Below are positions 1 through 13,797 of a stretch of DNA of 17,265 nt, piece by piece. Positions within the stretch are counted from its first letter, which is position 1; every line of letters begins with the position of its first letter. A model generated the notes under the pieces. That model did not search any database. It saw only the letters and a program-made list of their open reading frames with translations, and was not told the origin of the DNA. The stretch comes from Myxococcales bacterium (GTDB lineage Bacteria; Myxococcota; Bradymonadia; REDH01), in contig JAGWVZ010000022.1 of assembly GCA_018970625.1 (NCBI GenBank), positions 1 to 17,265 of the forward strand, written 5' to 3'. The position numbers and the translations under genes are program-made.

Positions 1-657
1 GTGTCGTTCCAGCCACTGTTGGCGCGCTTCCCGACCAATCACGGACTGAAAATGCCGCACCATCTGAGGGTAAGGGTGCGGCCCCAGCGCAGATCCCAGA
101 AGATAATAGCTGTTGTCCGGATCAGCAGCCCAGGCGCGCATGGCGTCGTTAATAGCGTCCTTGAGTGTAGCCGTTCCTGTCTCGACAGGAACCACCTCGG
201 CGCCCAGCAGACGCATACGCCAGACGTTCAACGCCTGCCGCGCGACATCGACGGCACCCATATACACCGTGCAGCGCATGCCGAGCTTTGCGCAAACGGT
301 CGCCGTCGCGACACCGTGCTGGCCGGCGCCGGTCTCCGCGATGATGTGAAGACAGCCCATTTCGCGCGCGACAAGCGCCTGACCCAGGCTGTTATTGATC
401 TTGTGTGCGCCGGTATGATTCAGGTCTTCGCGTTTGAGCCACACCTGACCCGCGGAACCCCACGCCTTCTCAAGGCGATCAGCGCGAGTCAAAGGCGATG
501 GTCTGCCGATGTAATCGCGACACCATAGCTGAAACTCTTCGTCGAAGCCCGCATCAACACGAAGCCGGCTCCAGGTCTCTTCAATGCGTCGGAGCGGCTC
601 GATGAGCGTTTCAGGTACATACGCGCCGCCGTACTTGCCGTAGCGTCCAGCTACCAT
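1..657 (-). CDS. trpB: Tryptophan synthase beta subunit, 5' part (cut by window edge)
   Basis: TrpB joins indole, channelled from TrpA, to L-serine to make L-tryptophan, using PLP in the cytoplasmic alpha2-beta2 complex. I translated the minus strand from the ATG at 657: 219 residues stay open to the window edge, about half of a normal TrpB of about 400. Family motifs are clear: GRYGKYGGAYVPE at the N terminus, the PLP-lysine segment NHTGAHKINN (Lys86) and ETGAGQHGVATA with the catalytic Glu at about 108. The ATG lies inside the last codons of trpF, so ATGGTAG is shared (651-657) and translation is probably coupled. The remainder, and probably trpA, lie to the left of the window. The identification is certain; only the 3' end is missing. 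Confidence 0.97.
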   Translation of the reverse strand, partial: MVAGRYGKYGGAYVPETLIEPLRRIEETWSRLRVDAGFDEEFQLWCRDYIGRPSPLTRADRLEKAWGSAGQVWLKREDLNHTGAHKINNSLGQALVAREMGCLHIIAETGAGQHGVATATVCAKLGMRCTVYMGAVDVARQALNVWRMRLLGAEVVPVETGTATLKDAINDAMRAWAADPDNSYYLLGSALGPHPYPQMVRHFQSVIGREARQQWLERH

Positions 658-1364
658 GAGTTCTCTCCAGGTTGTCCCAAACGAGTATCGTCGGGAGATG
701 CAGCGATATTCTGTATGGTTTCACGTGAAACCAGAGCGTCTCTGGCAGCACAAACGAAGGCGCGAATCGCGTCGTGCGACTTGCGTGGTGCCCGCGTAGG
801 GTCTTCTACGCCAGAGCTGACGTCCACCCCGGATGGACTCAGAAGCTGCACGGCTTCCGCCACGTTGTGTGCATTCAAGCCACCAGCGACCAGAAATGGC
901 CACTCGGGCCGGTCTATCCCCGACCAGGGAAGCGCCTGACCTGTTCCACCAAACTCACCAGCGTGAGCCGAGTCCAGCACGACACAGCCAACACCCGCTG
1001 GCGGCGCTACGACGCGCCATCGTTCGCCGTACGGTTCCGGCTTCTGTGCCCACCACACGGGCACCTCAGACCGTTGTGTGCAGTGCAGGACATCCTCGGC
1101 GGAGTAACCCCCATGCAGCTGGATAGCGGAGAGCCCCCACAGCTCCGCCAGCAGCAGCACGTCGGAGGTCTTATTGCCCTGAAACACACCCACGCGGCTC
1201 GCTGCACCCGAGGCGTCCATGAGCTCCAACCAGAGCGCCGGACCAACGGTGCGCCGGCGATCCGGTGCGAAGACAAACCCGACATGAGTCGCACCGGCTT
1301 CCACAGCGCATCGGACATCGTCCGGGTGCATGAGCCCGCAAACCTTGATGATCGACTGCGTCAC
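651..1364 (-). CDS. trpF: Phosphoribosylanthranilate isomerase
   Basis: TrpF isomerises N-(5-phosphoribosyl)anthranilate to the enol-ribulose phosphate that TrpC uses. Visible TIM-barrel motifs are KVCGL with the general-base Cys9, GFVFAPDRRRTV (29-40), QLHG, LDSAHAGEFGGTG with the acid Asp131, and the phosphate-binding segments LVAGGL and GVDVSSGVED. The start is GTG at 1364, with GGAGG overlapping the trpC stop codon (TAGGAGG), 8 nt between genes. At 237 residues it is about 30 longer than most TrpF proteins. The surplus is a C-terminal tail after DAIRAFVCAARDAL that has no barrel motif. Within that tail residues 212-216 (VSRET) are encoded by a perfect parS palindrome (717-732). The tail is therefore probably there for DNA reasons rather than catalysis. 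Confidence 0.96.
   Translation of the reverse strand: MTQSIIKVCGLMHPDDVRCAVEAGATHVGFVFAPDRRRTVGPALWLELMDASGAASRVGVFQGNKTSDVLLLAELWGLSAIQLHGGYSAEDVLHCTQRSEVPVWWAQKPEPYGERWRVVAPPAGVGCVVLDSAHAGEFGGTGQALPWSGIDRPEWPFLVAGGLNAHNVAEAVQLLSPSGVDVSSGVEDPTRAPRKSHDAIRAFVCAARDALVSRETIQNIAASPDDTRLGQPGENSW
717..732. promoter_or_regulatory. parS site 1 (ParB/Spo0J binding), inside trpF
   Basis: GGTTTCACGTGAAACC is a perfect 16-bp palindrome whose inner 14 bp equal the conserved bacterial parS core GTTTCACGTGAAAC. ParB CTPase clamps load at such sites and spread to build the partition complex. It lies in the frame that reads Val-Ser-Arg-Glu-Thr in the TrpF tail. It is one of three exact cores within 2.5 kb, which makes chance very unlikely. 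Confidence 0.88.
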
Positions 1365-1372
1365 ACCGCCTC

Positions 1373-2149
1373 CTACCGTGAACGACCGAGCAGGCGTTCC
1401 AGCTCTCGCCGAGGGTTGGCTGATGTAGCAAGAAGCTCACCTACGAGGATGGCGTCAGCACCGGCGTCACGCATGCGGTTGGCGTCCTGCGCGTCCAGAA
1501 TCCCCGACTCCGCGACCGTGATGATATGGCATGGAATCAGCGCCCGAAGGCGCTCGAACAGACCCATATCCATGGAAAAATCACGTAAATTGCGATGATT
1601 TACACCTATGATGCGAGCGCCGGCCTCAATGGCCCGTTGCAGCTCTTCGGCATCATGAGTCTCGACGAGCACGTCCATGTGCAGCGCATGGGCGGTTTCC
1701 AGCAGCTGCCGCAGAGGCAACACCGAAGGAAAGAGCGCGACGATCAGCAGAACGGCGGAAGCGCCGAGCGCCTTCGCCTGATGAATCTGGAACGCGTTGG
1801 AGACAAAGTCTTTTCGTAGCGCCGGTGTCTCGAGACTGGCCACGATCTGTCTCAGGTCTTCGTCCCGACCACCGAAACGATGAGGCTCGGTGAGGACGCT
1901 GATCGCCGCTGCACCGCCGGCTGCATATTCCCTGGCCAGCGCGACAGGATCAGCAATCGAGGCGAGCTCACCGCGGCTCGGGCTCTTGCGTTTGACCTCA
2001 GCGATCACGGAGAGTCCGGGCGCGGCGAGCGCCGCGTGAAACGCGAGCGTAGATGGGAGAGGTCGCAGCGGGTTGGACAGCGGGGCAGTGCATTCTACGG
2101 CTGCGTCGTGAGCACGCTGAAGGGTGATATCCCTGAGAATCGAGATCAT
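1373..2149 (-). CDS. trpC: Indole-3-glycerol-phosphate synthase
   Basis: TrpC closes the indole ring of 1-(o-carboxyphenylamino)-1-deoxyribulose 5-phosphate with loss of CO2 and water, making indole-3-glycerol phosphate. The 258-residue single-domain length is typical; no TrpF is fused to it. Signature and catalytic positions are present: VIAEVKRKSPSRG (Glu51, Lys53), LRKDF (Lys113), LVETHDAEEL (Glu163), GVNHRNLRDF (Asn184) and AESGI (Ser215), ending in the phosphate-binding ILVGELL. The start ATG overlaps the trpD stop by 4 bp (ATGA, 2146-2149). The stop forms part of the trpF ribosome-binding site. The only small oddity is His in NHRNL, where NNRNL is commoner. Confidence 0.97.
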   Translation of the reverse strand: MISILRDITLQRAHDAAVECTAPLSNPLRPLPSTLAFHAALAAPGLSVIAEVKRKSPSRGELASIADPVALAREYAAGGAAAISVLTEPHRFGGRDEDLRQIVASLETPALRKDFVSNAFQIHQAKALGASAVLLIVALFPSVLPLRQLLETAHALHMDVLVETHDAEELQRAIEAGARIIGVNHRNLRDFSMDMGLFERLRALIPCHIITVAESGILDAQDANRMRDAGADAILVGELLATSANPRRELERLLGRSR

Positions 2150-3186
2150 GCCATCGCTCCCTGAATCAGCTGACGATACTCTCTCAGCAATTTGCCGGGA
2201 GCCCCTTGTCGCAGCGCGAGACGCGCCATCTCAACGCCACCCTCCACCGACGACGAGGTCCCTGTGTGATGAAGCGCCAGGCCTGCGTTCAGCGCCACGG
2301 TCTCTGCGAGCCCATGGGCACCTTGACCATCAAGGAGTTGGAACAGCCTGGCCGCATTCTCTTCCGGTGCTCCACCATCCAGTTCGTGCATATCAATCGT
2401 GTGCACCCCATACTGTTCGGGATCACACGTCTCTGTGTGAGTGGGTTCACCTGGCCGAACATGTTTCACGTGAAACGGGTAACCGGGCAGGGCTTCATCG
2501 GCGCCAGAAGATGAATGCAAAAGCAGGGTGGGAATGCCTCGCGCCTCACAGACGGGGGCCAGAAGGTCGAGCGCCGACTTGCGCGGCACACCCATCATCT
2601 GGTGCGTCAGCGGAGCGGGGTTGATGAGTGGGCCCATCAGGTTGAACAGGGTCATGACACCGAGTGCACGCCTCACCGGACCCAGCGTCGCGAGCACCGG
2701 GTGATGATTGGGCGCGTGCATGAGCACAATCCCCAGCTCGCCAAGGGCGCGCTCAAGGACCGACAAGGGAACGCCCTGCATGGGCACCCCCGCGGCTTCC
2801 AGAACATCCGTCGAACCGCTGCGGCTGGAGACGGATCGATTGCCGTGCTTGGCAACCGCGACACCGCACGAGGCCACCGTGATCGCCACCGCCGTAGAGA
2901 TGTTGAATGTACCGGACCTGTCCCCGCCAGTACCGCAGGTATCCAGCAGCACACGAGGCGCTGTTTCCAGCAACAGAGCGCGCTCCATCAGGCCATCCCG
3001 AAATCCAAGCGCCTCATCACTGGTCTCGCCACGCATTCTTAGCGCCACCAGAATACCCGCTGCCGTCTCTGGCAGAATCTCGGCATCCACCAGCGACAGC
3101 AGCAGCACGCGCGCTTCCGACCGCGACAGCTGACCACCCAAGATCACATGCTCAAGCACCGATGGACCCAGCAATGTCGTCGTCAT
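2146..3186 (-). CDS. trpD: Anthranilate phosphoribosyltransferase
   Basis: TrpD transfers phosphoribose from PRPP to anthranilate. The 346 residues match the family length. Key motifs are DTCGTGGD (82-89), the PRPP/anthranilate loop KHGNRSVSSRSGS (113-125), FNLMGPLINP (181-190) and the metal-binding Asp-Glu pair at 230-231. Directly after the Asp-Glu pair lies a loop of variable sequence in the family. In it residues 238-241 (FHVK) are encoded by a parS palindrome at 2462-2477. The ATG overlaps the trpG stop (ATGA, 3183-3186) and the stop overlaps trpC, so trpG-D-C are tightly coupled. TrpD is a separate gene, not fused to TrpG as in enterics. Confidence 0.97.
   Translation of the reverse strand: MTTTLLGPSVLEHVILGGQLSRSEARVLLLSLVDAEILPETAAGILVALRMRGETSDEALGFRDGLMERALLLETAPRVLLDTCGTGGDRSGTFNISTAVAITVASCGVAVAKHGNRSVSSRSGSTDVLEAAGVPMQGVPLSVLERALGELGIVLMHAPNHHPVLATLGPVRRALGVMTLFNLMGPLINPAPLTHQMMGVPRKSALDLLAPVCEARGIPTLLLHSSSGADEALPGYPFHVKHVRPGEPTHTETCDPEQYGVHTIDMHELDGGAPEENAARLFQLLDGQGAHGLAETVALNAGLALHHTGTSSSVEGGVEMARLALRQGAPGKLLREYRQLIQGAMA
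2462..2477. promoter_or_regulatory. parS site 2, inside trpD
   Basis: TGTTTCACGTGAAACG contains the perfect 14-bp core (2463-2476) and matches 15 of 16 bases of the extended consensus TGTTTCACGTGAAACA. It codes for Phe-His-Val-Lys in a surface-type loop of TrpD. It is centred about 1.75 kb from site 1 and 0.74 kb from site 3. Confidence 0.88.
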
Positions 3187-3791
3187 GCGCTCGCTCCGTC
3201 ATCACGTTTCACGTGAAACGTGTTCACCAGCGACACAAAGTTACGCATCATGGCATGGCCATGTTGGGTGAGAATCGACTCCGGATGAAACTGAACCCCC
3301 CAGGTCGGATGTTCACGATGCGCCAGACCCATAATCACCTCATCGTCTTCTGAGCGCGCGGTCACACGAAGACAGTCGGGAAAGCTGGAAACTTCGCCAA
3401 CAAGGCTGTGATAACGACCCACCTCGACCGGGCTCGGTATCCCTTCGAAGATGCCCGTGCCGTCGTGCGTGATGCGGCTCGCTTTTCCGTGCACAGGACG
3501 CGAACCCCGAACGACACGCCCACCAAACGACTGCACCATGCACTGGTGCCCCAGACATACGCCCAGCAACGGCAGAATACCGGAAACCTCGGGAATGCAA
3601 GACAGGCTGATACCCGACTCCGATGGCGAGTTGGGGCCCGGACTAATCACGACCCCGCGATACCGGCCCCCTACAATCTCGGGTATCGTGATCTGATTCA
3701 CCCGACGAACCTCTACCTCGGCTCCGCATTCCAGCAGATACTGATAGAGGTTATAGGTAAAACTGTCGAAATTATCGATCAGCAGTATCAT
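3183..3791 (-). CDS. trpG: Anthranilate synthase component II (glutamine amidotransferase)
   Basis: TrpG hydrolyses glutamine and passes ammonia to TrpE for anthranilate synthesis. A class I amidotransferase of 202 residues opens with MILLIDNFDSFTYN. It has the oxyanion loop GPNSPSESG, the nucleophile Cys79 in LGVCLGHQ, and the His169/Glu171 pair in VQFHPESI. Such subunits can also serve folate synthesis (PabA), but the operon position makes the Trp role primary. No strong Shine-Dalgarno is visible before the ATG, and the 60-nt gap to trpE is the widest gap in the operon. Its last residues run past the usual C terminus and include FHVK (192-195), encoded by parS site 3. Confidence 0.96.
   Translation of the reverse strand: MILLIDNFDSFTYNLYQYLLECGAEVEVRRVNQITIPEIVGGRYRGVVISPGPNSPSESGISLSCIPEVSGILPLLGVCLGHQCMVQSFGGRVVRGSRPVHGKASRITHDGTGIFEGIPSPVEVGRYHSLVGEVSSFPDCLRVTARSEDDEVIMGLAHREHPTWGVQFHPESILTQHGHAMMRNFVSLVNTFHVKRDDGASA
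3203..3222. promoter_or_regulatory. parS site 3, inside the 3' end of trpG
   Basis: CACGTTTCACGTGAAACGTG is a perfect 20-bp palindrome with the parS 14-bp core at its centre (3206-3219), making it the most extended of the three sites. It encodes the C-terminal tail of TrpG a few codons before its stop, close to the trpD start. Confidence 0.88.
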
Positions 3792-3851: not shown

Positions 3852-5324
3852 TTACCTGAACCGCGGGCTCTGACGCAGCGCTTCCAGCACCGCGCTCGAC
3901 TTCTGCCGCGTCTCCTGCTCCTCGGATTCCGGCACGGAGTCTGCCACGACGCCCGCGCCAGCGTGCACACTCGCCATACCCTCCTGAAACAACAGGGTTC
4001 GGATCGTAATGCAGCTGTCCAGGCCGCCATGGCCATCAAAGTAACAGACCGCCCCCGCATAGGGACCTCGACCCACAGGCTCCATCTCGTCGATGATCTC
4101 CATCGCACGAACCTTTGGGGCGCCGCTCACCGTTCCCGCAGGGAAACACGCCAGCAGTGCATCCAGAGCGTCCACGTCGGGGCGAAGCTCGCCCACCACA
4201 CGGCTCACCAGATGCATCACGTGGCTGTAATGCTCGACCTCCATCAGGGACTCCACCCGCACCGTGCCTGACGCGCTCACACGACCAATGTCGTTGCGGG
4301 CCAGATCCACCAGCATCATGTGTTCGGCGCGCTCTTTTGGATCGTTCAGCAGCTCCGCAGCCAAAACGGCATCTTCCGCAGCCGAGGCGCCACGCCGACG
4401 CGTCCCGGCGATTGGCAGCGTCTCGACCCTACCCCCGCGCACACGCACCAGATCCTCCGGGCTGGAACCTACGAGCTGGAATGCGCCCGTATCAAAAAAC
4501 ACCTGAAACGGTGATGGGTTCAACATGCGCAAGGAACGATACACCGCAAATGGATCGCCCTCGAACGGCGCCGAAAATCGACGGGCAAGCACCACCTGAA
4601 AAATATCACCTCGCTGAATCAACTCCTGAGCCTGTGTCACCTGCGCGCGATACGTCCCGGCATCGGGAACCACATCCACCTGCATCGCCACATCGGCACC
4701 ATCATTCCAATGGCTCCCTGCCGCCTGACTTCTACCCAGGCCGGCACGGGTAAGCTGACGCGTCAGTACGTCATGTGTGTTGTCGATCTCCTGCATGGCG
4801 CGAACATAGGCTTGCTCCGTACGCTGCGCGGGAGGCAACACCAGCGCCACATGAAGGCGCCTGCGTAAATGGTCAAAGATGACGTGGTGACGAAAGTGCA
4901 CCAGCACAAAATCCGGCACCGCGCTCGGATCGTGACGCCGCCCTGCCAAAAGGCTCGGTTCAACCAGACGGATGGTGTCGTAGCCCAGAAAACCCACGGC
5001 GCCGGCCGGAAACGATGGCAAGCCCTCGGTGAGCACACACACCGCGTGTGAGGCGACAAACTGTCGAATTCGACCCAGCTCGTCGGCCGTCCCATCGGCA
5101 CGCCCCTGCACGCGCTCCTGCTCGTTCCAGCCAACAAAGCTGTAACGCCCCATCTTTTCGCCACCTTCAGCGCTCTCCAACACGTAGCCAGCGTGCCCGC
5201 GGTTCAGAAAGAGCAGCGCCGCCAGCACCGGCGTCGTCACATCCAGCGCGCGCTCACTGCTGACCACGACATGACGGTGGGCATCACTCGACAGAAACGA
5301 GGTCAGAGACGTTTGGGCAAACAT
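3852..5324 (-). CDS. trpE: Anthranilate synthase component I
   Basis: TrpE converts chorismate, with ammonia from TrpG, to anthranilate, the first and feedback-controlled step of the pathway. It has 490 residues from the ATG at 5324. The N-terminal domain carries YVLESAEGGEKMGRYSF, whose LES segment lies in the Trp feedback pocket known from the family. The chorismate-binding domain has PIAGTRRRG, ERAEHMMLVDLARNDIGRV, FPAGTVSGAPK (394-404) and AGAGVVADSVPESE (455-468). An in-frame TTG 75 nt upstream (5399) is rejected as the start. It would make the attenuator hairpin coding, and homology to TrpE begins only after MFAQTSLTSF. GGAG lies just 3 nt before the ATG, which is close. The attenuator T run ends about 7 nt upstream. 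Confidence 0.96.
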   Translation of the reverse strand: MFAQTSLTSFLSSDAHRHVVVSSERALDVTTPVLAALLFLNRGHAGYVLESAEGGEKMGRYSFVGWNEQERVQGRADGTADELGRIRQFVASHAVCVLTEGLPSFPAGAVGFLGYDTIRLVEPSLLAGRRHDPSAVPDFVLVHFRHHVIFDHLRRRLHVALVLPPAQRTEQAYVRAMQEIDNTHDVLTRQLTRAGLGRSQAAGSHWNDGADVAMQVDVVPDAGTYRAQVTQAQELIQRGDIFQVVLARRFSAPFEGDPFAVYRSLRMLNPSPFQVFFDTGAFQLVGSSPEDLVRVRGGRVETLPIAGTRRRGASAAEDAVLAAELLNDPKERAEHMMLVDLARNDIGRVSASGTVRVESLMEVEHYSHVMHLVSRVVGELRPDVDALDALLACFPAGTVSGAPKVRAMEIIDEMEPVGRGPYAGAVCYFDGHGGLDSCITIRTLLFQEGMASVHAGAGVVADSVPESEEQETRQKSSAVLEALRQSPRFR

Positions 5325-5331
5325 GGACTCC

Positions 5332-5368
5332 AAAAAGCGAAAAGGCCCGGCGCTGATGGCGTCGGGCC
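5332..5368 (-). terminator. trp operon attenuator (rho-independent terminator)
   Basis: On the minus strand a GGCCCG/CGGGCC stem extended by CGC/GCG, with one A-C mismatch and a 5-nt loop (5344-5368), is followed by TTTTCGCTTTTT (5332-5343). It lies between the Trp-rich leader peptide and the trpE ATG, where an attenuator belongs. An alternative 8-bp pairing between GGGUCCGG (5410-5417) and CCGGGCCC (5364-5371), with one G-U pair, would sequester the first five bases of the terminator stem and act as antiterminator. A stalled ribosome at the Trp codons leaves 5410-5417 free, while one at the stop codon covers it. Confidence 0.87.
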
Positions 5369-5405
5369 CGGGTGCTGCACAAAATCCAGAATGGGACAAT
5401 GCAAG

Positions 5406-5495
5406 TCAGCCGGACCCCTGACACCAACGCCAGCGCCAATCCTCACACAAGGTGGCAACGTCGGACAGGAGCGGGCTGAATAGTTCGTTTCTCAT
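5406..5495 (-). CDS. trpL: trp leader peptide with three Trp codons
   Basis: A 29-residue reading frame starts at ATG 5495 and ends with TGA at 5406-5408. Its C-terminal part reads EDWRWRWCQGSG: three UGG codons alternating with Arg codons at 5424-5438. Three Trp in five residues of a short frame placed directly before a terminator hairpin and trpE is the hallmark of ribosome-mediated attenuation. Low charged tRNA-Trp stalls the ribosome there and lets the antiterminator form. An in-frame ATG four codons upstream (5507) is possible, but it falls in the predicted -10 box. No Shine-Dalgarno is visible before either start, so initiation may be leaderless. Confidence 0.85.
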   Translation of the reverse strand: MRNELFSPLLSDVATLCEDWRWRWCQGSG

Positions 5496-7835: not shown

Positions 7836-7942
7836 GGTGACCAGAAAAATGAGGGGGGTACGCAAAAATCAGGCAACAGTTGCGCAAAACGGTCGACATC
7901 GGAGGGGAGAGCAACCGCAACGAACCCTTGGGGAGATGTACC

Positions 7943-10900
7943 ATGAAGATGAACGAACCGTCGTTTCTGATGCTGGAGGACGTACATAACGTCACGCAGT
8001 TCGCCGCCTGCATGCGGCAAGGGGGATGGGAAGTTGTGCCCGAGCGGGCCTGTGACGCCGGGGCAGGCGGATATTCCGCTGCGCGCTGGATGGAACGTCA
8101 GGGGTATGCTGGTACGCTCTGGGGTCTGAGTGGTGTCGACAGCTCGGGTATCTGGTTCTGGGACACCTCGGATAGTGTGCGCCCGCAGTCCGAATCAGCG
8201 TCACAACAGCTGGTCGAATACCTGGCTGAATCGGCTGCCACCGGCATGGCCATGCTGGTCACCTGGCACGGCGGCTTACGTCGGGAAATGGAGATTCATA
8301 CCGTTATTTCTGGCATCGGGACACGTTGCTGGCGGGGTGCTGCGGGCAACCGTACACTCGCTCGAGACGAGGTCTTCGAGGTATTTACCCGCACTCACGA
8401 ACCCGAGTTGTTGATCGTTGAATTGTCGGAGATATTGTCACGGCAGGAGGTGGGGCGTCGATTCTTTGCTGATGTACGAAAAAATATTCAGATGCTGGAT
8501 ATCGCGTGGCAGAATTTACGGGACGACCGTTCAGAGAGCCGTCGTTATCTGTCACTGCTGCTGTTGTGCCGCCTGATGTTTCTGTACTTCGTACAGCGAA
8601 AGGGCTGGCTGGCTCGTGATGAACGGTTTCTGGCTCGCTGGCTGTTGCATCGAGATGCACAATCCCCCTGGGGTCAGGGTGATATTTATACACATATTCT
8701 ACGCCCGATATTTTTCGAGATTCTGAACCGTGCAGATCGAAGCGGCCGCACCGAACCGGCTTTCTCGGGTGTGCCATTCCTGAATGGCGGTTTATTCTCG
8801 CCAGCCGAGGTGGAGTTACAAAATCCCGACGCGCAGATCTCGGACGAGGCTTTGCGAAAACTTATCGCTCAGGTTTTCGAACGCTACCGTTTTGTGGAGT
8901 CCGAGCGAGCGGGCCGCGAGGCCGCCGTCAATCCGGCGATGCTGGGTCGGGTATTCGAAGAGCTTATGATGACACCCGATCGCGAGTCCGCCGGGGCCTA
9001 CTACACGCCGCCGACGCTCGTGGATCGCATGGTGCGAGAGACGCTACAGGACGCCCTGGGAGCATCGCCCGACATTCCGGTATCATCAGAGGCAACTCAG
9101 CGCGCCGACCTGCTGGAATTGTACCAGCGAGCCTGCGCCATTCGGGTGCTCGACTGCGCGTGTGGCTCCGGCGCTTTTCTGTTGGGCATGCTGGATGCGT
9201 TGACCGACCTGCGGGTGACCCTGCTGCAACGTCTGGGAAAGCCGGCATCGCGATACGACGAGCGTCGCGATGCGCTCACGTCCTGCATCTACGGAATCGA
9301 CCGATCGCCTATCGCGATCATGCTCTGTGAGCTGCGGCTATGGCTCTCTCTCGCCAATGATCTGCCCGATGGCGCCGCACCCGAGCCGTTGCCCAACCTG
9401 GGTCAGCGTATCCGTTGCGGCGACGCTTTGCTGTCGCCTCACGATGTCTGGATGCAGGACGGCATCGCCCCGGACGCCGACCTCGCACATCAGCAGCGTT
9501 ACCTGACACTGGCGCTGGCCCGCGCCAACGGCGATGCCAAGTCCAGGCTCTCGAGCGCGCTCTCTGAAGTGGAAACAGAGCTCGCAAGGACCATGCTGGA
9601 GCGGGTGATGCAGCAACGTTCGGAAGAGCTGCAGCGGCTTACAGCGCCGGGCGTCGATCTGTTTGGCGAGCCATCCTCTGTTTCGAACGCGAACGCCGCG
9701 CAGATTCGGGCGGCCCAGAGGTCCTGGGAGGAGGCGTACAACCGTCTGCAGCAGTCGCAGGCGCAGGGGTGGACGCCTCCATTTCATCCGACACTGCACT
9801 TCGCGGGCGTTATGGCCGAGGGTGGCTTCGACGTGGTGATTGGCAACCCGCCATGGATTCGGCTTTCAGACCTGCCCGGTGAACAGCGGCGTTCTCTGCT
9901 CTCGCGCTATCGCTGGATGTCGGGTGCCGGCATGGGCGAGGTATTTGGCAGGCAACCCGATGTCGCCGTCGCGTTTGTCGAACGTGGTCTGGAGCTGCTC
10001 CGCGAGGGCGGTGTTCTATCGTATCTGCTGCCCAGCAAACTGTTTTCGGCCGGTTATGCGGCTCGACTGCGGCAGGAAATCCGGACGCATCACACGCTGC
10101 TGGCTCTGGCCGACCTGACCGGTTCGCCGGACGCCCGCTTCGATGCCGATGTATTTCCCGGGGTCATGCGGGTCCGTAAAGGTCGATCGTCAGGCGAAAT
10201 CCCGCTGGTGTCGGTGCAGCCGGTCGGCCAACGCACGGTGCAGGTGCCCGACTCGTTGATCGCACCGTTTTCGCACGACGCCCGACAAGGCTGGGCGCTC
10301 TTTGACGCAGGCGTGCTGGGCGTTCTTCAACAACTGGCAAGGCTTCCGAACTTGCAGTTAGCCGGTATTCTCCCCGCTTTAGGTCTAAAAACGGGGCTCA
10401 ATGAGGCATTTCGCACGCAGCGAAATCTTGCGTCGGAATGTCTACCGCTGGTCACCGGCGGCAGCGTGCGTGCCATGTCGTGGCAGGCTGACGGCCACCT
10501 GCTGTTTACGCACGACCTTCAGACGGCACGCCCGTTGACCCAACTCTCTCCCGAGGCGCTGCAACACCTGCAGGTGTATCAGGGCGCGCTGGAGAGACGC
10601 GTCGACCTGCGCGCCGGCGACCCGTGGTGGCGGCTGTTCCGTGTCGATGAGCGGGCACTGGGCTGGCGTGTAGTGTGGCGCGACCTTGCACCGCAGCTAC
10701 AGGCGACGTGGCTGCCACCGCTGTCGCAGGGGGGTCCTCTGGCGTTGAACTCCACCTATCTCATCGCCGTACGCGACCGACGGCAGGCGATACGCCTGGC
10801 TGCGTGGCTGAACACAACGCTCGCACGCTTCGTGGCCGTGAGCAGCTCGGAGCATGCTCTGGGCGGTTATCGACGCTTCGGCGCGGCGCACATGCAACGC

Positions 10901-11191
10901 ATACCCTGGCCATCCGGTTTTTCTGACGAGCGTGAGACGGTCATGGTGGGGCGATTTCAGGAGCTGGCTGAACACTGGGCCGATCATCCCGAGGACGAGT
11001 CGGCATACGAATCGCTCGACGCGCTGAGCGCCAGGCTCGTGGGACTTACCGGTTCGCAGTGGGCGATTCTTCGGCGCGCCGCGGCGTCGGTCTCGGCTGG
11101 TCGGCACCCGTTATCGTTGTCGTGCTCGACAGCTTCACTGGGAGCGGAGCTCTCAACGGGGGCATTGTCAGTGACGAGGGCGGGCACATGA
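7943..11191 (+). CDS. Eco57I-type N6-adenine DNA methyltransferase (restriction/defence type)
   Basis: This 1082-residue protein probably methylates adenine in a specific DNA site using SAM. The start is ATG 7943 with GGGGAG 7 nt before it; a TTG at 7880 would add 21 unlikely residues. The N-terminal third (1-330) is helical, with LLLLCRLMFLYFVQRKGWL as found in Type IIG/Eco57I-like enzymes. LGRVFEELM (from 334) and GAYYTPP (351-357) lead to SAM motif I VLDCACGSGAF (402-412). The catalytic motif IV is NPPW (635-638). A helical insert lies between them, and a target-recognition-like C-terminal part contains LNSTYLIAVRDRRQAIRLAAWLNT-type sequence. I see no clear PD-(D/E)XK or HNH nuclease. The stop overlaps the helicase start (ATGA). 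The family resembles DISARM DrmMI, BREX PglX and Type IIG enzymes; the exact subtype is open. Confidence 0.9.
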   Translation: MKMNEPSFLMLEDVHNVTQFAACMRQGGWEVVPERACDAGAGGYSAARWMERQGYAGTLWGLSGVDSSGIWFWDTSDSVRPQSESASQQLVEYLAESAATGMAMLVTWHGGLRREMEIHTVISGIGTRCWRGAAGNRTLARDEVFEVFTRTHEPELLIVELSEILSRQEVGRRFFADVRKNIQMLDIAWQNLRDDRSESRRYLSLLLLCRLMFLYFVQRKGWLARDERFLARWLLHRDAQSPWGQGDIYTHILRPIFFEILNRADRSGRTEPAFSGVPFLNGGLFSPAEVELQNPDAQISDEALRKLIAQVFERYRFVESERAGREAAVNPAMLGRVFEELMMTPDRESAGAYYTPPTLVDRMVRETLQDALGASPDIPVSSEATQRADLLELYQRACAIRVLDCACGSGAFLLGMLDALTDLRVTLLQRLGKPASRYDERRDALTSCIYGIDRSPIAIMLCELRLWLSLANDLPDGAAPEPLPNLGQRIRCGDALLSPHDVWMQDGIAPDADLAHQQRYLTLALARANGDAKSRLSSALSEVETELARTMLERVMQQRSEELQRLTAPGVDLFGEPSSVSNANAAQIRAAQRSWEEAYNRLQQSQAQGWTPPFHPTLHFAGVMAEGGFDVVIGNPPWIRLSDLPGEQRRSLLSRYRWMSGAGMGEVFGRQPDVAVAFVERGLELLREGGVLSYLLPSKLFSAGYAARLRQEIRTHHTLLALADLTGSPDARFDADVFPGVMRVRKGRSSGEIPLVSVQPVGQRTVQVPDSLIAPFSHDARQGWALFDAGVLGVLQQLARLPNLQLAGILPALGLKTGLNEAFRTQRNLASECLPLVTGGSVRAMSWQADGHLLFTHDLQTARPLTQLSPEALQHLQVYQGALERRVDLRAGDPWWRLFRVDERALGWRVVWRDLAPQLQATWLPPLSQGGPLALNSTYLIAVRDRRQAIRLAAWLNTTLARFVAVSSSEHALGGYRRFGAAHMQRIPWPSGFSDERETVMVGRFQELAEHWADHPEDESAYESLDALSARLVGLTGSQWAILRRAAASVSAGRHPLSLSCSTASLGAELSTGALSVTRAGT

Positions 11192-13797
11192 GCGCTGATT
11201 CCGCTTCACGCGACACGTGGCGACGCCTGTGGTCGGGTACCGGTGCGCCGGATTCGTGGGCGCATCGAACACCCGATATTCGACGGCTTCAGGCGCTTGC
11301 CGCGACGCTGCAATCCCTTCAGGGCGGGGTGGACGCCGATGGGTTGACACCTTCCCAACGGCTGGCGGTTCACTGGGCGGTGTCCTGCATTGCCGATTAT
11401 CGCGTGTCGCTGATTGCCGACGCCACCGGCAGCGGCAAAACGCACGTCGCGCTGGCGACCGCACGTGCGTTGGGGTTGCCAACGGCGGTCGTTTGCCCGC
11501 GACCGCTCGTCGCCGGGTGGAAAGCGACAGCATCGCACATGCAGGTACCCATTCGAGTGCTCAGCTGGGGCCAGCTACGTCGCGTCGCCGAGCACGAGAC
11601 TCCATGGGTGGGTCTGGCGATTCTCGATGAGGCGCACCACCTGCGCAACCCCGCCAGCGGAGTCAGTCAGGCCGCCCTGAAATGGCTGCCGTCGGCACGC
11701 ACACTGTTGTTGAGCGCGACACCGGTGTTCAACGACCTCCACGAGGGAGAGCACCTTCTGGGGATCACGCTTTCAAGCGCCCTGGCTCCCCCTCGCGCGA
11801 GCGTCAACACCCACGAGAGCCACGAAACGCAGCGGGCGCAGCCACCTCGACGAATCGCCTCATGGCCGATCACGATGCCGATTTCGTTGCCGTCGACCCA
11901 CATGAACGACTGGCTGGACCACTTTCTGTTGCATCGAACACCGACACAGCAACGGCAGTTTGACAGGGCGGCAGAATATCTGGGTGTGTGCACACACACT
12001 GGGCCGGGCGACTGGTCGGGGCGGCCCCGGACCCTGCACTCCGTCGTTCCAGAGCACGACGCTGGTACTGCAGCCGCCCTGCTCATGGTGTCGCGCGTGG
12101 CGGCGAGCCTATCGGGAGACGCCGGCGGCGCATGGCTGCACCGGACGCTGTTGCGGCGCATGGCGTCGTCCACGAGCGCGCTGCTGGCCAGCCTGCGTGC
12201 GCTGCGCGGCTATGTCGATGCCGGGCGGCGGGCGGCGCTGGAGGGTCGGCGCCTGCAACGACGCGATTATCGGCAATGGATGCAGGTTCAGGAGCCGGGG
12301 GCGGCCGAACAGCAGGTGCTGGCATTGTTTCTGGATGAAGCCGGGAGCTCAGACGGTTTCACGTGGAACGACGCGCTTCGGGTCATGGACGAAGCGCTCT
12401 CACACGCCTGGCCGAAGAACGAACCCACCATGCGACACGTCATGGAGCGCTACGTGAGAGGGGCAGCGGTCGTGTTCACCGAGTACCGGGCGACGGCGCG
12501 TTCGTGGTTTGACACGATTCGGGCCGAGGGTATCCCGGTGACGCGCATCACGGGCGATGCGGCATACGACAGCCAGTGGGGACGACTTGATATGGAGCAG
12601 GCGCTGGACGTCTTCGCGCGCGGCCGAAGCGGTAAACGCATGCTGGTTACGACCAGCGTGCTCTCAGAAGGTGTGAATCTGCCCATGGCCGACGTGGTGA
12701 TTCATGCCGATCTTCCCTGGACGCCCGCGCGTCTTCAGCAGCGAAACGGGCGCCTGGACAGACGTGGAGAGTCTGCGCCCATGCACATCGTCATGGTGCA
12801 GCCGTCGGCAGCGCTCGACCATCAGGCGCGCATTCTGGACACCCTGTTGCAAAAACAGGCCGCGCATCGAACGCTGGACCATAGCGTCAGCGCACCAGCG
12901 GTCTCGCTGACATCGGCGGTGGACCCACAACAGTGCCGCCCCACAGAGACAGACGACGCGTCGGTCGGTCAGCAGAGAGCCTGTGCTGTCGCACGCGCTG
13001 AGCAGCACCCGATACCGGTGGGCGGTGAGCTGTCGCTCGTGCAATCGTTGGTCAGTGGCGACGAACTGTGGCGCTGGGTGCACGTCCCGGACATGTCCGG
13101 GGTCGACATCGCACCCATGATCCCCTGGTGTTCTCATGGAGTCTCGGCGGAGTTGCCCGCGGGTCCCGATCGAGGGATGCGGTTCAATCAGTGTCGAATA
13201 CGCGGTGAGCTGGAGCGTGTGGCGCTGGTGTTGCGCTCTTCGGCGCTCGCGTGGGCCGTGCCAGCACCGGTCAGGCATCGATTTTTGGAGCAGCGACAGC
13301 AGAGCGAGCAGCGAGCGATGCTGCGACGGGAGGGTCGCCGAGAGCTTCTGGCGATGGCGCATCGGCTGGGCGCGCGTGCGGCTGTCGTTGGCGATACCGA
13401 TTGCGTTCGGTGGTGGACCCGTGGGTTTGTAGCCGCGCTGGGCGTCCCCCCGAGACTGAACGAGCTGGAGGTCGAGGAGCGGTGGCTGCGTACGTGCCTG
13501 CTCACGTGTGATGCCACAACGCCGACAGCAGAGCTGCGAGAGTGGGTTCAACAGCGACAGCATTTCGGACAACAGGTGCAAAAAGAACAGTGTCTGGCCT
13601 TCAGAGGGCCCTGGTTGGTGCTCGCAGGTGATCGCGCGACCGCGCTGGAGCAATTGAAGCGCTATCTGGATGAAACCGCCGCGGAGGGTAGTGGGGCGAG
13701 TGGGGTGGGGCGGACGAATGCGCGAAGTTTGACCACTCGTTGCGCAGTTCATGGTGATTGCGTCGGCCGTGGGTGCGGTTACAAGGCACGTCCGTGA
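11188..13797 (+). CDS. SNF2-like DEAH-box helicase paired with the methyltransferase
   Basis: This is an 869-residue superfamily-2 ATPase likely to move along DNA. Motifs: Walker A ATGSGKT (79-85), DEAH (147-150), SAT (176-178), and in the second RecA lobe LSEGVNL (492-498) and QQRNGRLDRRG (517-527). The shape LSATPVFN, with a large insert between the lobes (about 215-400), is SNF2/HepA-like. The last 300 residues (about 560-869) have no motif I recognise; the extreme C terminus is Gly/Arg/Cys-rich. The start is ATG 11188, inside the methylase stop (ATGA), so the two proteins are made together. A longer frame from 11059 is rejected because it would overlap the methylase by 130 bp. The likely role is the translocase/effector of a methylase-based defence or modification module. 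Confidence 0.88.
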   Translation: MSADSASRDTWRRLWSGTGAPDSWAHRTPDIRRLQALAATLQSLQGGVDADGLTPSQRLAVHWAVSCIADYRVSLIADATGSGKTHVALATARALGLPTAVVCPRPLVAGWKATASHMQVPIRVLSWGQLRRVAEHETPWVGLAILDEAHHLRNPASGVSQAALKWLPSARTLLLSATPVFNDLHEGEHLLGITLSSALAPPRASVNTHESHETQRAQPPRRIASWPITMPISLPSTHMNDWLDHFLLHRTPTQQRQFDRAAEYLGVCTHTGPGDWSGRPRTLHSVVPEHDAGTAAALLMVSRVAASLSGDAGGAWLHRTLLRRMASSTSALLASLRALRGYVDAGRRAALEGRRLQRRDYRQWMQVQEPGAAEQQVLALFLDEAGSSDGFTWNDALRVMDEALSHAWPKNEPTMRHVMERYVRGAAVVFTEYRATARSWFDTIRAEGIPVTRITGDAAYDSQWGRLDMEQALDVFARGRSGKRMLVTTSVLSEGVNLPMADVVIHADLPWTPARLQQRNGRLDRRGESAPMHIVMVQPSAALDHQARILDTLLQKQAAHRTLDHSVSAPAVSLTSAVDPQQCRPTETDDASVGQQRACAVARAEQHPIPVGGELSLVQSLVSGDELWRWVHVPDMSGVDIAPMIPWCSHGVSAELPAGPDRGMRFNQCRIRGELERVALVLRSSALAWAVPAPVRHRFLEQRQQSEQRAMLRREGRRELLAMAHRLGARAAVVGDTDCVRWWTRGFVAALGVPPRLNELEVEERWLRTCLLTCDATTPTAELREWVQQRQHFGQQVQKEQCLAFRGPWLVLAGDRATALEQLKRYLDETAAEGSGASGVGRTNARSLTTRCAVHGDCVGRGCGYKARP
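12355..12370. promoter_or_regulatory. Degenerate parS-like site inside the helicase gene
   Basis: GGTTTCACGTGGAACG contains GTTTCACGTGGAAC, one base from the three perfect cores. Read on the minus strand, its core GTTCCACGTGAAAC fits the B. subtilis-type consensus GTTNCACGTGAAAC exactly. It lies within codons for Phe-Thr-Trp-Asn, so codon content could produce it by chance. Whether ParB uses it is unknown. Confidence 0.45.

Follow-up and report, generated by a model that had tools for sequence, protein, structure and literature searches.

Probable chromosomal parS sites hosted by the trp operon of a Myxococcales bacterium

Loading of ParB at parS sites, and its spreading from them, have been established (PMC7053999, PMC9242446, PMC7083940), and in Corynebacterium glutamicum one such site, parS1, lies in trpCF near oriC, where ParB loads and spreads up to 16 kb to each side (PMC7083940). 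In Pseudomonas aeruginosa nine of the ten sites parS1-10 are predicted to lie in coding sequence and four form an origin-proximal cluster; the accounts of these sites in the two papers concerned mention no trp gene (PMC4368675, PMC5521831), and the first of them classes parS4 as the sole intergenic site. The Myxococcus xanthus parABS system also has its parS cluster close to the origin, with 22 sites in all and parAB ~35 kb from oriC (PMC3899335), while the parS of Mycobacterium smegmatis is given in a table row of PMC7022226 as GTTTCACGTGAAAC, a 14-mer that PMC9100643 also contains. Here we describe a 17,265-base stretch of DNA from a Myxococcales bacterium of the class Bradymonadia (contig JAGWVZ010000022.1; the whole stretch is referred to as the window), in which this identical 14-mer occurs three times within a trp operon. 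Very probably these copies are true parS sites of the chromosome and belong to a centromere of the origin region that occupies the trp operon and its surroundings, the trp genes serving as their hosts. The location of a perfect chromosomal parS within a trp gene is not new, as C. glutamicum provides a precedent, but there a single site lies in a single gene and the other nine are intergenic, whereas in the window three trp genes carry one site each (PMC7083940). That paper was the only relevant one found, as judged from the listings, in a literature search for a link between parS and trp, and a term search of its text on parS1 returned no tryptophan or transcription analysis of the site.

An initial sequence-only reading of the window had reported three exact copies of the palindrome and had held that such recurrence could not be due to chance, both of which were borne out. 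GTTTCACGTGAAAC is present at 718, 2463 and 3206, entirely within coding sequence in each case, and the number of exact copies expected in 17,265 bases is 2.5e-5 from base composition and 5.6e-5 under a first-order Markov model. When up to three mismatches were allowed the window gave six matches as compared to a shuffle mean of 0.59, and none of 200 shuffles reached six. The sites contain the CACGTG core of parS, and inspection of their flanks extended the perfect palindrome to 18 bp around the first site and 20 bp around the third, the flanks of the second not prolonging its 14 bp. A further site at 12356, overlooked by the sequence-only reading, has the sequence GTTTCACGTGGAAC and matches the looser consensus GTTNCACGTGNAAC, a pattern that was matched in none of 200 shuffles of the window and nowhere in 400 kb of control sequence (20 stretches of 20 kb from a relative, G146). 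The same variant was observed close to parS in G008 and G063, within the stretches that carry it, and in G053 it lies on the opposite strand between two perfect sites; the site at 12356 is probably also a parS. The window thus shows both a match to the chromosomal parS consensus (three perfect sites and one variant) and clustering above chance. The positions of these sites and of the genes around them are collected in Table 1.

Table 1. Predicted parS sites, trp genes and neighbouring features of the window
Feature	Coordinates	Strand	Location or description
parS site 1	718..731		In trpF; perfect palindrome of 14 bp (18 bp including flanks); V-S-R-E-T, C-terminal tail
parS site 2	2463..2476		In trpD; perfect 14-bp palindrome; F-H-V-K, variable loop
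parS site 3	3206..3219		trpG 3' end; 14-bp palindrome, 20 bp with flanks; F-H-V-K and first base of R codon
parS site 4, putative	12356..12369		In helicase-like gene; variant GTTTCACGTGGAAC, fits GTTNCACGTGNAAC
trpB, start only	1..657	-	TIGR00263, E 2.1e-96, under whole-protein cut-off; gene runs off window
trpF	651..1364	-	PF00697
trpC	1373..2149	-	PF00218
trpD	2146..3186	-	TIGR01245, over cut-off
trpG	3183..3791	-	TIGR00566, over cut-off
trpE	3852..5324	-	Probable start ATG 5324; longer open reading frame begins 5399
Putative attenuator terminator	5332..5370	-	Hairpin, then U-rich run, ahead of trpE
Putative trp leader peptide	5406..5495	-	MRNELFSPLLSDVATLCEDWRWRWCQGSG; 29 residues, three Trp codons, run WRWRW, end DWRWRWCQGSG
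Eco57I-type methylase	7880..11191	+	Open reading frame, 1103 aa; homologue holds parS in G029, lies between two perfect parS in G008
SNF2/helicase-like	11059..13797	+	Open reading frame, 912 aa; contains site 4; parS also inside its homologues in G008 and G001

The palindrome encodes V-S-R-E-T in its first frame and F-H-V-K in its second, and contains TGA within its third; the first frame is used in the TrpF tail and the second in both the TrpD loop and the TrpG tail. The sites can be accommodated inside genes because these two frames are open, and because the enzymes appear to tolerate extra or variable residues at these very positions. Conservation was assessed at the level of homologous proteins rather than of their DNA, using the best 120 of 4599 (TrpF), 7795 (TrpD) and 7999 (TrpG) scored matches. 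In these sets VSRET was present in six TrpF homologues (P0001-P0006, 67-95% identity), while FHVK was present in seven TrpD homologues (P0121-P0127, 56-98%) and five TrpG homologues (P0241-P0245, 87-99%), the carriers being the closest homologues in each set together with one TrpD, P0127, at 56%. Among the close rows the site-encoded residues are invariant while the surrounding tails vary: VSRET is kept in 7/7 TrpF rows (the window and P0001-P0006), where it accounts for five of the 13 invariant positions among the last 33, and FHVKR in 6/6 TrpG rows (the window and P0241-P0245), where it accounts for five of the seven invariant positions among the last 17. P0008, in which the match covers just 43% of the query before the sequences diverge and the tail is lacking, was excluded from the TrpF clade. 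FHVK is likewise kept in 7/7 close TrpD rows as well as in P0127, which suggests that the trpD site would be older than the other two, provided that the FHVK of P0127 represents a parS. In more distant homologues the residues are variable or missing, FHVK being absent from the next TrpG relatives, P0246-P0249. As the encoded peptides occur in the closest homologues, the sites have probably been maintained in the lineage of the window.

The genome nearest to the window is G001, a contig of which (L001) gave the top TrpE match among named genome contigs (51%) and pairs with the window in a TrpE tree of 81 rows (100/87), both branches being long and flagged by the tool, so that the tree is not used to assign a phylum. 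Of 377 genomes sampled from the phylum of G001, 118 carry the exact 14-mer and four its letter-reversed control (the latter count as read from the table), the respective counts in G001 itself being 2 and 0 when no mismatch was allowed. All six collection genomes of the order of G001 carry the 14-mer, and in each of them one or more genes of the ssb, luxE or luxC-like types are found nearby. Taken together, the exact motif, its clustering, the lineage-restricted conservation of the peptides and the phylum-wide enrichment of the 14-mer make the earlier assignment to ParB/Spo0J-type parS very probably right. The highest number of exact 14-mers in any of the 377 genomes, 21, was observed in the 4.2-Mb genome G223.

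Linkage to dnaA was followed in 11 parS-bearing genomes chosen from those listed. dnaA and parS share a contig in six of them, 10-492 kb apart, and are on different contigs in the other five; the individual distances are ~141-153 kb in G014, 31 kb in G029, ~198-200 kb in G117, 177-221 kb in G146, 10-61 kb in G251 and, if its 5,045,683-base contig is circular, ~485-492 kb in G008. GC skew along G146 (20 stretches of 20 kb) was negative at 0-1.6, 2.8, 3.2, 3.6 and 4.0 Mb, about zero at 3.4 Mb and positive at 2.0 and 2.4 Mb and from 4.4 Mb, which was too noisy to place oriC relative to dnaA (3.30 Mb) and parS (3.48-3.52 Mb) and was not used. A ParB_N match above the cut-off was obtained in all 11 relatives, and G001 encodes a chromosomal-type parA-parB pair, the ParB of which matches Spo0J/ParB structures. 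Unlike in M. xanthus, parA-parB lies ~2.2 Mb from dnaA in G008 (G008:C1, 5.05 Mb) and 3.2 Mb from it in G146 (G146:C1, 8.05 Mb), and 2.3-3.4 Mb from parS in these two genomes (loci L154 and L155), in which parAB seems to be uncoupled from parS. This may not hold everywhere, since G251 has a second, weaker ParB_N match (C81:38377) separated from dnaA by 14 kb and from parS by 25 kb.

The methylase gene and the helicase-like gene, the latter of which contains the fourth site, provide a second line of comparison. Searches of relatives with the window proteins, for which the trp loci served as positive control, gave a single clear best match to the methylase in each of 14 chosen genomes, and in 11 of the 14 a helicase match adjoins it (as read from the match tables). 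In G008 the methylase is flanked by two perfect parS, 3.7 and 1.2 kb away, the second of which lies in the helicase open reading frame and reads VSRET; in G029 the methylase-helicase block is again at parS, with a site inside the methylase open reading frame that also reads VSRET; in G001 the helicase is at parS without the methylase. No homologue of either protein was found in the 20 control stretches of G146. The contigs carrying parS in G053, G218, G269 and G274 are too short, or have the site too near their end, to be informative on methylase linkage. The block is therefore a recurrent, albeit non-universal, neighbour of parS, and its presence fits an origin-region parS domain in the window. 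In an alignment the fourth site of the window falls close to the helicase site of G008, at a distance of nine columns, but as their frames differ and the linker around them aligns poorly the two need not be the same site. The closeness to oriC proposed in the sequence-only reading is made likely by what is seen in relatives, namely the dnaA linkage and the methylase-helicase neighbours. With respect to the helicase-like gene of G001, two perfect parS 50 bp apart were observed at its 3' end (L083 10049-10112, contig 69), one forming the stop codon and the other encoding FHVK. The overlapping methylase and helicase open reading frames of the window may function as a pair in restriction or defence. 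Beside parS in G053, G218 and G269 there are also relatives, at ~40%, of the EamA gene of the window, which was not relied on as linkage support, as it belongs to a large family.

Several observations weigh against this interpretation. At the sites themselves, all three perfect copies differ from the 16-mer TGTTTCACGTGAAACA at one or both outer bases, and the conservation described above is visible at the level of the peptide and not of the DNA, FH moreover being common at the same TrpD position outside the lineage. In G001 the motif and its letter-reversed control gave two matches each when one mismatch was allowed. Of the 14 open reading frames scanned in the window, none was recognisable as an origin, replication or partition gene. 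The methylase, although on the same contig as parS in G146, is 0.84 Mb away, and it is off the parS contig (~99-369 kb) in G014, G024, G034, G091, G117 and G251. Finally, the parS stretches of 17 relatives gave no match to any trp protein of the window, and 80 TrpE-related loci had no parS-like site within the fetched flanks. As the parS stretches and TrpE loci of relatives show no such pairing, the occurrence of parS within trp looks particular to the lineage of the window within the samples examined; in the order of G001, trpG and parS are on separate contigs in all five genomes with a trpG match.

The trp operon context proposed from the sequence alone was confirmed by profile matches to trpE, trpG, trpD, trpC, trpF and trpB, arranged on the minus strand in the order trpE-G-D-C-F-B, with just the start of trpB inside the window; truncation by the window edge accounts for its score being under the TIGR00263 cut-off. 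The operon appears to have attenuator control of its own, as the two features of a ribosome-dependent attenuator, a leader peptide containing Trp codons and a terminator, are both predicted ahead of trpE. The leader fold has a z of -2.3 relative to shuffles, and in its centroid the third Trp codon and the bases following it are paired to the terminator's 5' arm in an antiterminator-like manner. Weighing against an attenuator, the terminator hairpin alone was equalled or bettered by 25 of 200 shuffles; a simple terminator scan gave no flag at its position, and an Rfam scan of the window returned one match, far under the gathering score, and no family at the trp leader.

These features bear on the alternative that the sites do double duty, ParB bound in trpG, trpD and trpF hindering or tuning distal trp transcription and thereby coupling tryptophan synthesis to segregation or replication. 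The presence of three sites in three genes of a single operon, retained in the close homologues listed, would be in keeping with this, as would the repression exerted by ParB near parS3 and parS4 of P. aeruginosa and at comCDE of Streptococcus pneumoniae, and the decreased expression of most genes around P. aeruginosa parS1-4 upon mild overproduction of ParB (PMC5521831, PMC7022226). However, the sites are internal to the operon, ~2 kb or more 3' of a leader that apparently provides its own regulation. In P. aeruginosa without ParB, moreover, the neighbours of parS3/4 were derepressed and those of parS1/2 were not (PMC5521831, PMC7022226), such that at the native ParB level the reported effects are confined to parS3/4, taken as intergenic, while the intragenic parS1/2 appear neutral (PMC5521831), and parS-adjacent genes of Bacillus subtilis were reported as unaltered in the absence of Spo0J (PMC7022226). 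The double-duty alternative is accordingly unlikely, and the effect of ParB on trp transcription that the sequence-only reading raised as a possibility is conjectural. A stronger form, in which the parS cluster has stayed with the trp operon so that ParB clamps in three trp genes act as roadblocks or topological barriers and trp output tracks origin segregation, is likewise unlikely; if it were true, parS1 in trpCF of C. glutamicum would be convergence and not coincidence. A link between trp and segregation is weakly supported, given the apparent attenuator and the neutrality of the P. aeruginosa intragenic sites at native ParB, and the most likely role of the trp operon is that of a bystander.

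We also considered whether the sites might belong to a secondary replicon, a chromid or megaplasmid, that bears the trp operon. Plasmids do carry relatives of TrpD (106 records by tblastn), but all 106 of these matches are under 60% identity, the motif accompanies dnaA in relatives, and the scanned open reading frames are as devoid of recognised replication and partition genes as already noted; a search of IMG/VR for TrpD found no relative. The finding of the methylase-helicase block, or part of it, at parS in G008, G029 and G001 slightly increased our confidence in an origin-region parS cluster and lowered that in a secondary replicon, which we regard as improbable. That some other DNA-binding protein uses the motif as its operator, or that the enzymes preserve it by a coincidence of coding, is scarcely credible in spite of the fully coding position of the sites and the frequency of FH at the TrpD position, as perfect palindromes read in two frames in three unrelated enzymes, with ~6e-5 copies expected and with encoded residues that are variable in, or absent from, other homologues, argue against it.

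For this organism the binding of ParB and its spreading, the function of the sites and their closeness to oriC are inferred. ParB would load as a CTP (cytidine triphosphate)-dependent clamp at each perfect copy, and probably also at the variant at 12356, and would then slide over the adjoining DNA, allowing ParA and SMC to act on the region; by analogy with the spreading in C. glutamicum, the whole trp operon would be under ParB. The locus most probably represents a centromere of the ordinary kind whose host operon is unusual but precedented, and the placement of parS in trp genes is by itself no proof of regulation. It offers an example of how centromere sites may be written into coding sequence by way of two open frames and tolerant enzyme tails and loops, and by adding to the Corynebacterium case another instance of trp genes with parS it makes the notion of trp as a favoured host testable.

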